Assembly: GCF_008935075.1 (NCBI RefSeq)
Contig: NZ_CP044545.1
Coordinates: 3,351,587 to 3,415,586 of the forward strand
Origin: Pradoshia sp. D12
GTDB lineage: Bacteria; Bacillota; Bacilli; Bacillales; Pradoshiaceae
Direction: 5' to 3'
DNA: 64,000 bases
Shown here: positions 17,837 to 47,838 of the stretch, piece after piece
Numbering within the stretch: position 1 is the first letter of the stretch
Layout of the letters: each line of letters begins with the position of its first letter
Notes under the pieces: generated by a model
What the model saw: the letters and a program-made list of their open reading frames with translations, nothing else
What the model was told of the DNA's origin: nothing
Databases searched by the model: none
Program-made: the position numbers and the translations under genes

Positions 17837-18178
17837 TTAGTTGCGGAGGCCAACAGGATGTTGGTCACAAAGACGTTGTCACAGGACATGGCGTTCTTAG
17901 TCTTTGTTCCTTGAAATGGTCGCCTCAGCTTTTATGCAATCCAGCTTCAACGGCTAGAAACTCAGGTCATAAGCATGACCTCTACAGGAGGGAAGAACTC
18001 CTCCTTCCGAGCCCCTGTCTTATGCTCCTCGCTTCTGAGCAAGCCGTTTCAGCACTATAGTCAATCCGGCTTCGGCTCCTAGCTCCTCGAGTCATAAGTG
18101 TAGCCACTGCGGGAGGGGAGAACGCCTCCCTACGTGCCTCCTCTTATGCTTGTCGGAGCTGACCAGTCGCCTCAGCAC
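17837..18178. repeat. Dispersed GC-richer repeat, copy B
   Basis: This is an inverted match to copy A at 1-187. The block 17837-17915 corresponds to A 96-157, and about 18060-18110 corresponds to A 15-60. Inside it are two related modules of about 130 bases, each with 'gtcataag', an 'aggaggga/ggaggggagaac' hairpin region and 'cttatgct'. There is no plausible gene in it. The right end runs into the last codons of the feu ATPase gene, whose stop codon at 18144-18146 lies in the repeat. Confidence 0.75.
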
Positions 18179-38673: not shown

Positions 38674-40014
38674 TTAAATGGTTGCTAATGAAAGTTCAAG
38701 AAATTGGGGTCTCCCATAAAAATAACCCTGAGCAAGGTCTACCTTATTCCGTACCATCACCATAGCCTCATCTTCATTTTCTATTCCTTCTGCAACAACA
38801 AGAGAACCCGTTTCTTTAGCAATGAGCAGCAGACCCTTAAGCATAGATTCTTTCACACTGTTTGAATGAATATTTTGTATAACTGTACGATCGATTTTTA
38901 TGATATCCGGCAATACTTCTCCTATAATATGCAAACTTGCATAGCCAGCTCCTGTATCATCAATAGCTATTCTAATTCCAAGTGAACGTAAATAGCTGAC
39001 ATTTGATCTTAATAGATGAACTCCTTCAATCGAATCTCTCTCGGTTATTTCAAACACTACCACGGATGGTTCAATCTCATATTTTTTTAATAACATCTCT
39101 ACATGGCCAGGAAAATTACGTTCTCCCATTGTTATTGGTGTAAAATTGATATAGATATCACCCTCTATATCCGTCATTTGGATGTGTTGAAATACCTTTT
39201 CCAACACAATCATTTCAAGAGTAAACAATCTGCCAGTTTGTTTAGCGACTGCAAATAACGTTAACGGATTTTCAAGCTTCGTTCCGGACGGTCCTCTTGA
39301 TAGCATTTCCCATGCTTTAACCTTACCCGTTTCTACTTCTAAGATAGCCTGTGACATCAAGCGAATCGATTTATCATGGATAATACCAGTAAGCTGATGA
39401 ATCATATCATTATAATCTGGCTCCACCTCATTACGAGCCATGGAATGAGCTAAAACAAAGGCCCGATTAACCGTTGTTTCAATATTTATATAGGTCCGGT
39501 CACAGTACATATATCCACGTCCGATTGTAAGCTCAATTGGCGAATATCTATATATGTCAGATTCCTGTACTGACTGGTGTATATTCCCTATTATATTATC
39601 CAACTGGTCAGTTCCTGGTGTGCACAAAGGACTCCTTACATACAAGACAATGCTATCCTGATTAAAATCTTGTACTCCCATAATATTTGTTCTGTAAATA
39701 TATTTTTTAATAGCTATTTCAAATTCTTTTTTTAAATCATGAAAGAAGGAGTAATAGGCTTGCTCACCAGCCATTTCCTTTAATTCATCCATTTTGCTAA
39801 TATGAAATACAACAATTGCAATTTCACCTTGATTTCCAAATGCTTTTTTTATCCTTGATACAATTGGGTTTCTTATTGTAAATTTCGGAGGATAGAACAG
39901 AAGTCTCGAATCAAGAAGAAAAATGGACATCCACTTACTCCATTTTGTTCCTCCATTATAGGAATGAACCATATTACACAATCCTCTCACAAAAGCATAG
40001 TTGGGATTTAACAT
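38674..40014 (-). CDS. EAL-domain cyclic-di-GMP phosphodiesterase with degenerate GGDEF domain
   Basis: The product has 446 residues. About 60-190 is a GGDEF-like fold without the GGDEF active loop (the region around DSIVLYVRSPL). About 210-445 is an EAL domain. Metal and catalytic residues are kept: E in AWEMLSRGP (EML in place of EAL), N in YINFTPIT, E in VVFEITERD, DD in AIDDTGAGYASL, K in IIKIDRTVI, E in VVAEGIENE and Q in AQGYFYGRP. It should therefore hydrolyse cyclic di-GMP. No membrane segment is seen. It interrupts the yutE-yutD neighbourhood of B. subtilis, so it is likely an insertion or a lineage-specific gene. The start is uncertain; later ATGs are possible. Confidence 0.87.
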   Translation of the reverse strand: MLNPNYAFVRGLCNMVHSYNGGTKWSKWMSIFLLDSRLLFYPPKFTIRNPIVSRIKKAFGNQGEIAIVVFHISKMDELKEMAGEQAYYSFFHDLKKEFEIAIKKYIYRTNIMGVQDFNQDSIVLYVRSPLCTPGTDQLDNIIGNIHQSVQESDIYRYSPIELTIGRGYMYCDRTYINIETTVNRAFVLAHSMARNEVEPDYNDMIHQLTGIIHDKSIRLMSQAILEVETGKVKAWEMLSRGPSGTKLENPLTLFAVAKQTGRLFTLEMIVLEKVFQHIQMTDIEGDIYINFTPITMGERNFPGHVEMLLKKYEIEPSVVVFEITERDSIEGVHLLRSNVSYLRSLGIRIAIDDTGAGYASLHIIGEVLPDIIKIDRTVIQNIHSNSVKESMLKGLLLIAKETGSLVVAEGIENEDEAMVMVRNKVDLAQGYFYGRPQFLELSLATI

Positions 40015-42059: not shown

Positions 42060-42833
42060 CTATTTTGCAGGTAGTTGGATAGCAGGGGATCCCCCTGTCC
42101 CACTCCCATTGAAATAAGTAGGAACATGACCGGACACGACTCTCATTCCCATTGGAATAGTGGTTTTAATCTTCGTCGGCTTTGAAGCAAATGGGATAAT
42201 AACCTGGGCATGAACTTCAACCTCTAAATAGACCTTAATCAGGGCGTTATTGATTCCGTATGGCTCCAGGGTCGTTTTGACATCACTTTGTATATCACTG
42301 ATTGTTTCCATTTCCACCGGGATTTTTGGACCAAGATTACCAAGCAAGGCATTATTCGTTGCTTTCCCGAGCGGAACCTCATGTATAATTCCCTTTGAAC
42401 CATTTTCCTTCACCCTTACTCGATCCTTCAGATAGTCAAAGGATGATAAATTACCATTTTCTATTTCACTTAATTGATTTTGGATAAGCAAAGAGGTTTC
42501 CGAACGGATTCTATTAATAATTTCTGTGTTAAACTGGATTCCATCCACAGCTATATCGTCTCCCTGCTTGGGTATATCTGTAATAATTTTGTCCATATCA
42601 TTATGTGTGGAAAGAGTTTCTTTAATTGCTTGATTAATAACCAAGCTGGTAAGTTTTTTCGTTTCAGATTCTGCATAACGCATCAATGTAGGTTCAATAG
42701 CCGCATTCACGATCCAAAGACTGATTAGGCTCGTTCCCATAAAGAACAAAAATGTTATAATAAGGACATGCTTAACCGGCAAGGGACCCCGCATAATAGA
42801 TCGTTTCCTTTTAATCCGTTTACGTCTATACAT
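42060..42833 (-). CDS. yunB: YunB, sporulation protein
   Basis: A 257-residue protein similar to B. subtilis YunB, which is sporulation-controlled and needed for normal spores. Basic residues RRKRIKRKR precede a membrane anchor at about 18-41 (VKHVLIITFLFFMGTSLISL). The rest is an extracytoplasmic domain with IIHEVPLGKATNNALLGNLG and IKTTIPMGMRVVSGHVPTYF near the end. The start at 42833 is odd: its ribosome site AAGGAGGGG forms the 3' arm of the hairpin between this gene and the HD-GYP gene, and the T run abuts the ATG. Translation may therefore be structure-controlled. Confidence 0.85.
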   Translation of the reverse strand: MYRRKRIKRKRSIMRGPLPVKHVLIITFLFFMGTSLISLWIVNAAIEPTLMRYAESETKKLTSLVINQAIKETLSTHNDMDKIITDIPKQGDDIAVDGIQFNTEIINRIRSETSLLIQNQLSEIENGNLSSFDYLKDRVRVKENGSKGIIHEVPLGKATNNALLGNLGPKIPVEMETISDIQSDVKTTLEPYGINNALIKVYLEVEVHAQVIIPFASKPTKIKTTIPMGMRVVSGHVPTYFNGSGTGGSPAIQLPAK

Positions 42834-42880
42834 AAAAAATCCCCTCCTTACAAGTATACCTATGCTTGTAAGAAGAGGTT
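42834..42880 (-). terminator. Terminator of the HD-GYP gene that contains the yunB ribosome site
   Basis: On the minus strand CCTCTTCTTACAAG (42878-42865) pairs over 14 bases, with two G-U pairs, with CTTGTAAGGAGGGG (42854-42841). It is followed by ATTTTTT and then the yunB ATG at 42833-42831. The 3' arm is the yunB Shine-Dalgarno sequence, so one structure can both end upstream transcripts and hide the next gene's ribosome site. Confidence 0.8.
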
Positions 42881-42882
42881 TA

Positions 42883-43995
42883 TTAGCTTAATTTCATTGT
42901 ATGATTGCTGAAGGTTGTATCACATTTTTTAATGGTTACATCCAGCTGTATTTTCAAATCAACTTCATATCTAAATGGGAGCTGCTCACCATTTCTTTCA
43001 TACACTTCTATGACAGGGCGATCACTGTAGCCTGCATTCTGCCTAGATACGATTCCTTTTCGTCCATCATTTAATTCAACAGTGATGCCGACTGGATAAA
43101 TGGCAATCGACCTCTTGAATGCATCCACAATCTCCCGATCAAATTTAGTACCTGTACCTGCATACAACAGTTCCAGAGATTCACTTGGCAGCATCGCTTC
43201 CCGATACACACGTTTAGATGTAACAGCATCAAAAACATCTGCTACAGCAATAATTTTAGCCATGTATAAAATTTCATTGTTTTTTAGTCCTCGAGGATAC
43301 CCGCTGCCATCAAGCCGTTCATGATGCTGATATGCACAATGAGCCACGAGCAATGAAAGATTGTGGACCTGTCTGAGTATATGGAATCCTTCTTCCGAAT
43401 GCCGTTTAATAATTTGGAACTCACTTTCCAGAAGTTTTCCTGGTTTAAAGAGGATTTCCTCCGGAACGGCCATTTTCCCCACATCATGCAAGATTGAACC
43501 AAGTCCCAATGTTTTTAATACATCTGGCTTTAACTTTAATTCCAGACCGATGGCCAGTGAATATAGTGCCACATTTAAAGAGTGGTTAAAAACATAATTG
43601 TCAAATGCATAGATATCAGAAATAATATGAAATAAATCCTGATGTCCTTTTAATTCGGCTGTCAGTTGATCAACCAGCTTTGACATAGTCAATGCAGCCT
43701 TTTCTATGACTATACTTTTAGATTGCTTGACTTCATTCTTCATATTATCAAAGGTATCTTTAATTGTTACAATAGCTCCTCTTCGGATTTTATCTGAAAT
43801 GATATCCTCAGGAATTATATGACTGGTTTCTATATCATCAATATAAACATAAGGAATATTATATTTCTGCAGCCGTTTAATCTGCCAATCTGTAATTTGC
43901 ACACCTTTATGCAACAGGGTACGCCCCTTGATATCAACGATTGGCTTTCCTAAAACGGCACCCGAAGTTAAATAAGCTGTCTGAACGATTCTCAT
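42883..43995 (-). CDS. HD-GYP domain cyclic-di-GMP phosphodiesterase
   Basis: A 370-residue cytosolic protein. Residues about 1-110 are a variable N-terminal region with a GRTLLHKGVQITDWQIKRLQ segment. An HD-GYP domain at about 125-300 shows HSLNVALYSLAIG, LGSILHDVGKMAVPEEIL with the HD pair, HCAYQHHERLDGSGYPRGLK with the HHExxDGxGYP signature, and IIAVADVFDAVTS. All metal ligands are visible, so hydrolysis of cyclic di-GMP is likely. The C-terminus adds a PilZ-unlike strand region. It interrupts the yunB-yunC order of B. subtilis and ends in a terminator reaching the yunB start. Confidence 0.88.
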   Translation of the reverse strand: MRIVQTAYLTSGAVLGKPIVDIKGRTLLHKGVQITDWQIKRLQKYNIPYVYIDDIETSHIIPEDIISDKIRRGAIVTIKDTFDNMKNEVKQSKSIVIEKAALTMSKLVDQLTAELKGHQDLFHIISDIYAFDNYVFNHSLNVALYSLAIGLELKLKPDVLKTLGLGSILHDVGKMAVPEEILFKPGKLLESEFQIIKRHSEEGFHILRQVHNLSLLVAHCAYQHHERLDGSGYPRGLKNNEILYMAKIIAVADVFDAVTSKRVYREAMLPSESLELLYAGTGTKFDREIVDAFKRSIAIYPVGITVELNDGRKGIVSRQNAGYSDRPVIEVYERNGEQLPFRYEVDLKIQLDVTIKKCDTTFSNHTMKLS

Positions 43996-46907: not shown

Positions 46908-46998
46908 TTTTAACTTGATTCAGTCGAAGTTTGAACTCCTACTGATTTATCTCACGACCTAATCGAGGTGGGGAGACTTCTGCTGAATCAAGTTAAAA
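46908..46998. repeat. Inverted-repeat element at the yunF 3' end
   Basis: TTTTAACTTGATTCAG (46908-46923) is the exact reverse complement of CTGAATCAAGTTAAAA (46983-46998). Between them is 'ctcacgacctaatcgaggtggg', itself partly self-complementary. The right arm includes the yunF stop codon (46993-46995). It is transcribed as the end of yunF and may serve as its terminator. I recall similar elements being multi-copy in Bacillus genomes. The stretch 46743-46907 holds no gene. Confidence 0.7.
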
Positions 46999-47838
46999 CA
47001 AATCCATTTGTCTCGGATTTAAATCTTGATAGCTTATCCCGAGCATTTGTTGAAATTCCTTTGCGTTACCAGCGGCGTCTCCACCGGAATTATTGTTAAA
47101 TAAGACAATGATATCCCTTGTATCCTTTGCTAACTCCTGGATTCTCATTCTCCATTCAAGCAGTTCTTCTTCATTGTATTTATATAAATATCGAACTTCC
47201 CGCCAATTTGCATCATTCGGTTTATTCCAGCCATACACATTTCTTCCATGCATCCGCACAAGTGTAACTTCGGAATCGGTTGCAACTGGTACTGTCGGGA
47301 TTGAACCCTCGCCTGCTTGCGGTTCATCCACAATTGAATGAATCCACCCTTCTTCTTTCATAAAAGACAAGGTTGCTTCACGATATTTCTCACTAAACCA
47401 TGATTGATTTCTGAATTCCAAGACCACCTTACAATCGCCCATCATTTCCTTGCAATACCTTAAATAACTGACGTTTTCTTTTTTACAATCAAACCATGGG
47501 GGAAATTGAAACAAAACCAAGGCCAGCTTATTCGCGTTACTGTACGGCTTTAAGGAATCCTTAAAAGCATGGAACATGTCTTTTTTTGATTCAAAAGGGA
47601 TATCGCCACGCTGATGGCCCGTCATTCCTTGATAGGCTTTAACTATAAATTTAAAAGAATCAGGTGTCTCTTTAACCCATTTCTCAGCGTTCCTAATCGG
47701 CTGTACCGCGTAAAAGGAGGCATCAACTTCCACTACCGGAAAATGGCTGCTGTACTCAGCCAGCTTATCTTTAGGCTTAATAGTTGAAGGATAAAGGGTA
47801 TCATGATCACCCCAACCAGTTACACCAATATAAATCAT
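46993..47838 (-). CDS. yunF: YunF-like DUF72 protein
   Basis: The product has 281 residues, the length of B. subtilis YunF. It is a DUF72 TIM-barrel protein: IYIGVTGWGDHDTLYPSTI at the start, FPVVEVDASFYAVQP, LVLFQFPPWFDCKKENVSYL, VVLEFRNQSWF, VRMHGRNVYGW and IVLFNNNSGGDAAGNAKEFQ. No reaction is known for the family. Its last codon and stop lie in a dispersed inverted repeat. It is monocistronic; 'aggaggagatcc' precedes ATG 47838. Confidence 0.9.
   Translation of the reverse strand: MIYIGVTGWGDHDTLYPSTIKPKDKLAEYSSHFPVVEVDASFYAVQPIRNAEKWVKETPDSFKFIVKAYQGMTGHQRGDIPFESKKDMFHAFKDSLKPYSNANKLALVLFQFPPWFDCKKENVSYLRYCKEMMGDCKVVLEFRNQSWFSEKYREATLSFMKEEGWIHSIVDEPQAGEGSIPTVPVATDSEVTLVRMHGRNVYGWNKPNDANWREVRYLYKYNEEELLEWRMRIQELAKDTRDIIVLFNNNSGGDAAGNAKEFQQMLGISYQDLNPRQMDLF

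Follow-up and report, generated by a model that had tools for sequence, protein, structure and literature searches.

The window analysed here, a stretch of 64,000 nucleotides from Pradoshia sp. D12, carries on its minus strand an HD-GYP gene followed by the sporulation gene yunB. The stop codon of the HD-GYP gene (42885-42883, minus strand) lies 49 nt from the yunB start, and this gap is made up of 4 bases, a 14-base arm, a 10-base loop, a second 14-base arm, and an A with six T. The features of the locus are as follows.

42060-42833, minus strand: yunB open reading frame, with its ATG at 42833-42831 (PF09560 Spore_YunB, E 6.7e-28)
42834-42840, minus strand: A (42840) and TTTTTT (42839-42834), leading from the stem to the yunB ATG; terminator-like U tract
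42841-42854, minus strand: 3' arm, CTTGTAAGGAGGGG, which holds the yunB Shine-Dalgarno sequence (SD), AAGGAGGGG, at 42841-42849
42847-42851, minus strand: predicted start zone of the sporulation transcript, in the 3' arm, 13 to 17 nt after the C of CATA (promoter geometry)
42855-42864, minus strand: loop, CATAGGTATA (sequence reading and fold)
42857-42864, minus strand: putative mother-cell -10 element, CATAGGTA, in the loop; its CATA is conserved in the leaders
42865-42878, minus strand: 5' arm, CCTCTTCTTACAAG (sequence reading and fold)
42881-42883, minus strand: putative -35 core, ATA, 16 nt ahead of CATA; it shares the final base of the HD-GYP stop codon
42883-43995, minus strand: HD-GYP open reading frame, co-directional and upstream (PF13487 / PF01966)

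As seen, the minus strand can form a hairpin of 14 pairs, two of them G-U, closed by a 10-nt loop and followed by A-TTTTTT-ATG, with the SD forming the end of the 3' arm. A preliminary description of this DNA had reported a 14-base stem between the two genes, with the SD as its 3' arm and a T run abutting the yunB ATG, and both its coordinates and its wording are correct. Folding of 63 nt of minus-strand RNA returned exactly the 14-pair stem at -20.2 kcal/mol (z -4.28), and 0 of 200 shuffles were as good; longer spans gave z -4.13 (81 nt) and z -2.74 (131 nt). The fold of the plus strand (z -1.59) was rejected as belonging to the wrong strand and serves as a contrast only. The layout of 14 pairs followed by A and six T is that of an intrinsic terminator; the 10-nt loop and the A ahead of the T run make it less than ideal as one. 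The hairpin was missing from a simple terminator scan because the rule of that scan accepts loops of 3 to 8 nt. No cis-regulatory family of Rfam matched the hairpin site at gathering scores, and a plasmid search with the window hairpin gave no match.

Several other features of the window were recorded. Some 3 kb separate an EAL-domain protein gene (38674-40014) from the HD-GYP gene, such that an M23 peptidase gene and yunB are flanked by two putative cyclic-di-GMP genes (EAL and HD-GYP). Upstream of yunE, an open reading frame (46995-47838, minus strand) has a CATATG dyad and its SD in a weaker hairpin (GGATCT...AGATCC). The window also holds two Bacillaceae-1 RNAs (RF01690; 87-153 on the plus strand and 17850-17916 on the minus strand) and two SAM riboswitches (RF00162; 61269-61380 and 62882-62990, minus strand).

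Conservation and covariation of the yunB hairpin

YunB (PF09560) was present in 146 of 150 genomes of the order, and 159 yunB loci were compared: 3 from the same genus, the window's own included, 12 named loci from Rossellomorea, Bacillus and Jeotgalibacillus, and 144 from the order. By a loose criterion, at least 4 of the 6 SD bases paired upstream, the hairpin was found at 153 of the 159 loci; this criterion alone is a weak discriminator, with 132 of 159 still reaching it after the upstream part was shuffled. Under a strict criterion, an SD pairing probability above 0.8 together with an MFE of -15 or lower, the count was 128 of 159, compared with 22 of 159 for shuffled upstream parts. The same strict values were found for 7 of 38 control genes of the window, one of the seven being yunB itself. 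The yunB hairpin is beyond chance and is not a local oddity of the window. Motif, arm and context counts given below refer to a set of 111 non-redundant yunB leaders. Some genomes hold two yunB copies (G139, G071, G043, G040, G079 and G108), and the second copies of G040 (L144) and G079 (L145) are without the hairpin.

In a phylum-wide draw, YunB was found in 62 of 81 genomes, and 13 of the 30 yunB loci fetched from it had a hairpin by the strict criterion. The T run is absent from some of these phylum-wide hairpins, and at four loci (L300, L312, L316 and L321) unrelated stems surround the CATA loop, which suggests that the hairpin arose repeatedly.

Arm sequences vary widely between genera, and their complementarity is kept. 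For an arm-swap test, 106 of the 111 leaders could be split at CATA, and foreign arms were those less than 60% identical. Own 5' arms paired with their own 3' halves at a mean of -16.9 kcal/mol, against -13.1 kcal/mol with foreign arms (p 3e-13). The foreign arms also pair well because every arm complements an SD, and 23 of the 106 own arms fall in the worse half of the ranks. Among 28 leaders picked for equal register, that is, rows selected for the structure, changes on both sides were seen at 11 of 15 pairs, and all five measures gave 0 of 500 shuffles. These two results are the compensating stem changes in relatives that the preliminary description had proposed to look for. RNAalifold, run on a plain MAFFT alignment of 104 leaders, returned 0 pairs because stem lengths differ between leaders. 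In addition, the difference between sense and antisense energies was -4.1, compared with -1.65 in shuffles (p 1.6e-12). The advantage of the yunB strand over its complement goes beyond what composition explains and is what tolerance of G-U pairs on the yunB strand would produce; this energy gap indicates selection acting on the RNA of that strand.

A promoter-like motif in the loop

The tetramer CATA, which the preliminary description had not mentioned, occurs in 106 of the 111 leaders; its median position is -30 relative to the start codon, its sequence context is GCATA(C/T)AnAT, and in 99 of 103 leaders it falls within the hairpin. A weak ATA-like signal lies 16 nt upstream of it: relative to CATA, position -18 is T at a frequency of 0.61 and position -17 is A at 0.69 (106 leaders), and the -35 signal is weak overall. 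The consensus of the family fits the sigma-E -10 element CATACAnT; CATAGGTA, the copy in the window, matches it weakly and has its ATA at 16 nt. In C. difficile, according to the available part of one study, ATA is the mark of sigma-E -35 elements and AC that of sigma-K, the -10 elements being similar (PMC3789822). The same source places C. difficile YunB (CD0782) in the sigma-E regulon, with no promoter mapped in the part available, and reports CD0782 as lowered in a sigE mutant (PMC3789822). The putative promoter nested in the hairpin is probably of the sigma-E type, and its transcript would be without the 5' arm.

The exposure of the SD was computed for both kinds of RNA. In read-through RNA, the probability that the SD is unpaired was 0.0007 in the window, with a median of 0.01 over 102 leaders. 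In RNA started at +15 past CATA it was 0.79 in the window, with a median of 0.37 over 88 leaders. The SD was freer in the short transcript in 78 of these 88 leaders, and its unpaired probability exceeded 0.5 in 30 of the 88, such that the SD of the predicted short transcripts is often not fully open. Both halves of the earlier suggestion, that read-through RNA hides the yunB SD and that transcripts starting inside the hairpin free it, agree with these computed values.

We consider it likely that the 49-nt gap is a read-through insulator, a terminator and SD mask in one, with the nested developmental promoter as its bypass. RNA polymerase arriving from the HD-GYP gene would make the complete hairpin and could terminate at the U tract, and in any RNA reading past this tract the 3' arm would keep the yunB SD paired. 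In sporulating cells, the promoter inside the gap would be used by a mother-cell sigma factor, most probably sigma-E; the -35 element of this promoter would fall on the last bases of the HD-GYP gene, and its -10 element (CATA...) would be the hairpin loop. The sporulation transcript, for which we infer a start in the 3' arm, would be neither terminated nor silenced, because without the 5' arm no hairpin would form. The same 50 bases would then give two outcomes depending on where transcription starts, silent when read through and active when started inside.

Dependence on the upstream neighbor and alternative readings

Upstream genes were classified for 107 of the 111 leaders. A co-directional gene ending within 100 nt, and therefore a putative source of read-through like the HD-GYP gene of the window with its stop at 49 nt, precedes 71 of them; 25 have a co-directional gene farther away, and in 11 the upstream gene is divergent or none was found. 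Own arms reached a pairing energy of -12 kcal/mol or lower in 67 of 71 leaders with a close co-directional gene, 17 of 24 with a farther one, and 3 of 9 with a divergent or absent one. Since related genomes share context, the comparison was also made within GTDB families: co-directional members were more stable in 6 of the 7 families holding both contexts (one-sided p 0.016), the remaining family, f4, running opposite to the trend. One locus (L069) keeps a strong hairpin, and no clear co-directional gene was found there. The hairpin is kept with a close co-directional neighbor and is usually weak or missing otherwise. Relatives that retain the SD and lack the 5' arm, the case against its idea named in the preliminary description, do occur in a minority (for example L121, L134, L150, L130, L113 and L144); they lie mostly where no co-directional gene is close upstream, which fits the idea of a silenced yunB rather than refuting it. 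Two of them, L150 and L130, lack the arm despite a co-directional open reading frame, 133 and 358 nt away, respectively.

The tail follows the neighbor as well. It is T-rich in 60 of 71 leaders with a close co-directional gene, compared with 12 of 25 with a farther one (p 0.0017), and in 4 of 11 with a divergent gene or none. A run of at least five T beside the start was seen in 46 of the 111 yunB leaders, versus 11 of 526 genes sampled from the same genome. Such tails, and a gap of only 49 nt, would be expected if the hairpin served as intrinsic terminator for the gene before it, with SD and promoter simply reusing its bases and the masking having no role. This economy of sequence, also raised in the preliminary description, fits less well when taken alone, and we regard it as unlikely. 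At 5 of the 71 close co-directional loci (L033, L077, L081, L106 and L156), a strong hairpin is followed by fewer than four T in the tail, and several of the 13 phylum-wide hairpins have no T run. The upstream gene, moreover, is mostly HD-GYP, YunC or YunD, but in a whole set of loci it is a dihydrofolate reductase gene, two cases being confirmed by Pfam and ten further open reading frames being called similar to dihydrofolate reductase by eye. Upstream genes differ while the hairpin stays; therefore, the element belongs to yunB and not to the gene before it. The loci with a dihydrofolate reductase gene, rather than yunC or HD-GYP, before yunB are L026, L028, L035, L041, L066, L081, L082, L087, L095, L109, L125 and L156.

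The inverted repeat might instead act as DNA, with a repressor such as SpoIIID binding around the -10 element and the RNA pairing being a by-product. The dyad is indeed centered on the -10 element, some yunB arms contain ACAAG, the core of the SpoIIID motif, and the arms of a second gene, ypjB (CTTGTCC/GGGACAAG in relatives), resemble paired SpoIIID sites and show no arm covariation. An operator of this kind is nevertheless hard to reconcile with yunB arms that differ widely between genera yet stay complementary, or with the preference for yunB-strand RNA over antisense. It also does not predict a repeat that is usually weaker when the upstream gene is divergent, and we judge it improbable, more so than economy of sequence. 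Far less probable again is a leader attenuator or riboswitch, in which a promoter further upstream would be used and a signal would open the hairpin: the hairpin itself, terminator-like and with an SD-sequestering 3' arm, would suit an expression platform, but 49 nt is too short for an aptamer or antiterminator, the Rfam search described above gave no match at the site, and the promoter-like motif lies in the loop and not upstream. Chance, the tendency of pyrimidine-rich stretches to pair with a strong SD, explains why shuffled leaders so often pass the loose criterion and why foreign arms still reach about -13 kcal/mol, but it is already disfavored by the order-wide data (128 versus 22 of 159 by the strict criterion, together with covariation and context dependence), and we give it an equally slight probability.

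Similar hairpins at other genes and comparison with known systems

A covariance model of the yunB element gave yunB as the best match in its own genome (49.5 bits). The other matches there were mostly like ordinary terminators, one of them preceding a YpjB open reading frame, and in other genomes the second-best matches precede YqfC. Both yqfC and ypjB are genes of sporulation, and by the strict fold criterion, hairpins were found at 14 of 29 yqfC and 24 of 30 ypjB loci. Arm swaps revealed no covariation for yqfC (p 0.48, 26 leaders) or ypjB (p 0.97, 18 leaders); for this reason, and since the ypjB arms resemble SpoIIID sites, both genes are leads only and are not claimed as cases of the same device. 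For B. subtilis, yqfCD is given in the available part of one study as controlled by sigma-E and repressed by SpoIIID, and fragments of ypjB and yqfC were used there in gel shifts (PMC517825). A CATA-loop hairpin, often with a T run, precedes yqfC in about half of the genomes (L176-L184, L191 and L196-L225), and at the ypjB gene of the same genome as the window (G000:C1:2386872-2386917; L174, L254), CATACGAT lies in the loop of a hairpin that pairs the SD. This genome was sampled as 40 stretches of 20 kb, two of them chosen for ypjB and yqfC, together with the window itself; the sample contained 526 genes and 17 loose CATA-plus-SD hairpins, against 3 to 10 with shuffled upstream sequence; therefore, the arrangement is rare in this genome.

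We tentatively raise a wider possibility, to which we give somewhat less than even weight, that endospore formers have a general device in which a mother-cell -10 element forms the loop of an SD-masking and often terminating hairpin, allowing developmental genes to sit leak-free in vegetative operons. It might have originated repeatedly, for yunB in Bacillales and in other classes with unrelated stems, for yqfC, and perhaps for ypjB, and come and go as the upstream gene changes orientation. If true, the proposed insulator would explain how a sporulation gene can lie behind housekeeping genes such as dihydrofolate reductase without yielding its product during growth. It would also predict, for any genome, that the hairpin vanishes when the neighbor is turned round, as holds in six of the seven families compared.

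Hiding an SD in read-through RNA and freeing it through an internal promoter is a principle already known from late genes and homing endonucleases of phage T4 and proposed for sigG. In the B. subtilis sigG (spoIIIG) leader, as described in the accessible text, read-through transcripts from PspoIIG were proposed to go untranslated because of a large hairpin, which transcripts from sigG's own promoter cannot form (PMC5942855). As at yunB, a sporulation gene stands behind another gene, and the hairpin would form only in read-through RNA. However, that text names no terminator role, and the sigG promoter is of the sigma-F/sigma-G kind (PMC5942855), whereas at yunB the loop is the putative -10 element, the 3' arm leads into a U tract, and sigma-E is the candidate factor. 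Late hairpins of T4, in the excerpts at hand, precede I-TevI, I-TevII, I-TevIII and segB, with a further one at mobE of phage Aeh1, and SD-sequestering structures also occur at soc and e (PMC2988022). There too, early and middle read-through RNA hides the SD, and the late promoter leaves late RNA without enough of the hairpin. These excerpts concern phage genes and a phage late promoter and describe no terminator tail (PMC2988022); yunB, in contrast, is a bacterial developmental gene whose hairpin is kept over an order and recurs in other classes. For the literature on terminator-embedded promoters and read-through hairpins, the portions available contain no description of the yunB arrangement, and relative to them the proposed nested promoter and the wide conservation look new.

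Two more familiar elements share part of the layout. Expression platforms of the riboswitch type combine a terminator with SD sequestration, in a terminator-like hairpin with the SD in its 3' arm. Unlike these platforms, the yunB element is without an aptamer or an alternative fold, and the choice would be made by the promoter that is used. With an ordinary intrinsic terminator between operons it shares a GC-containing stem and then a U tract, but its 3' arm is the SD of the next gene, its loop is the putative -10 element of that gene, and its tail abuts the start codon. Overall, what sets yunB apart is the combination of a loop that doubles as a putative -10 element, a stem with a terminator tail, retention across an order, and a presence that follows the orientation of the upstream gene.
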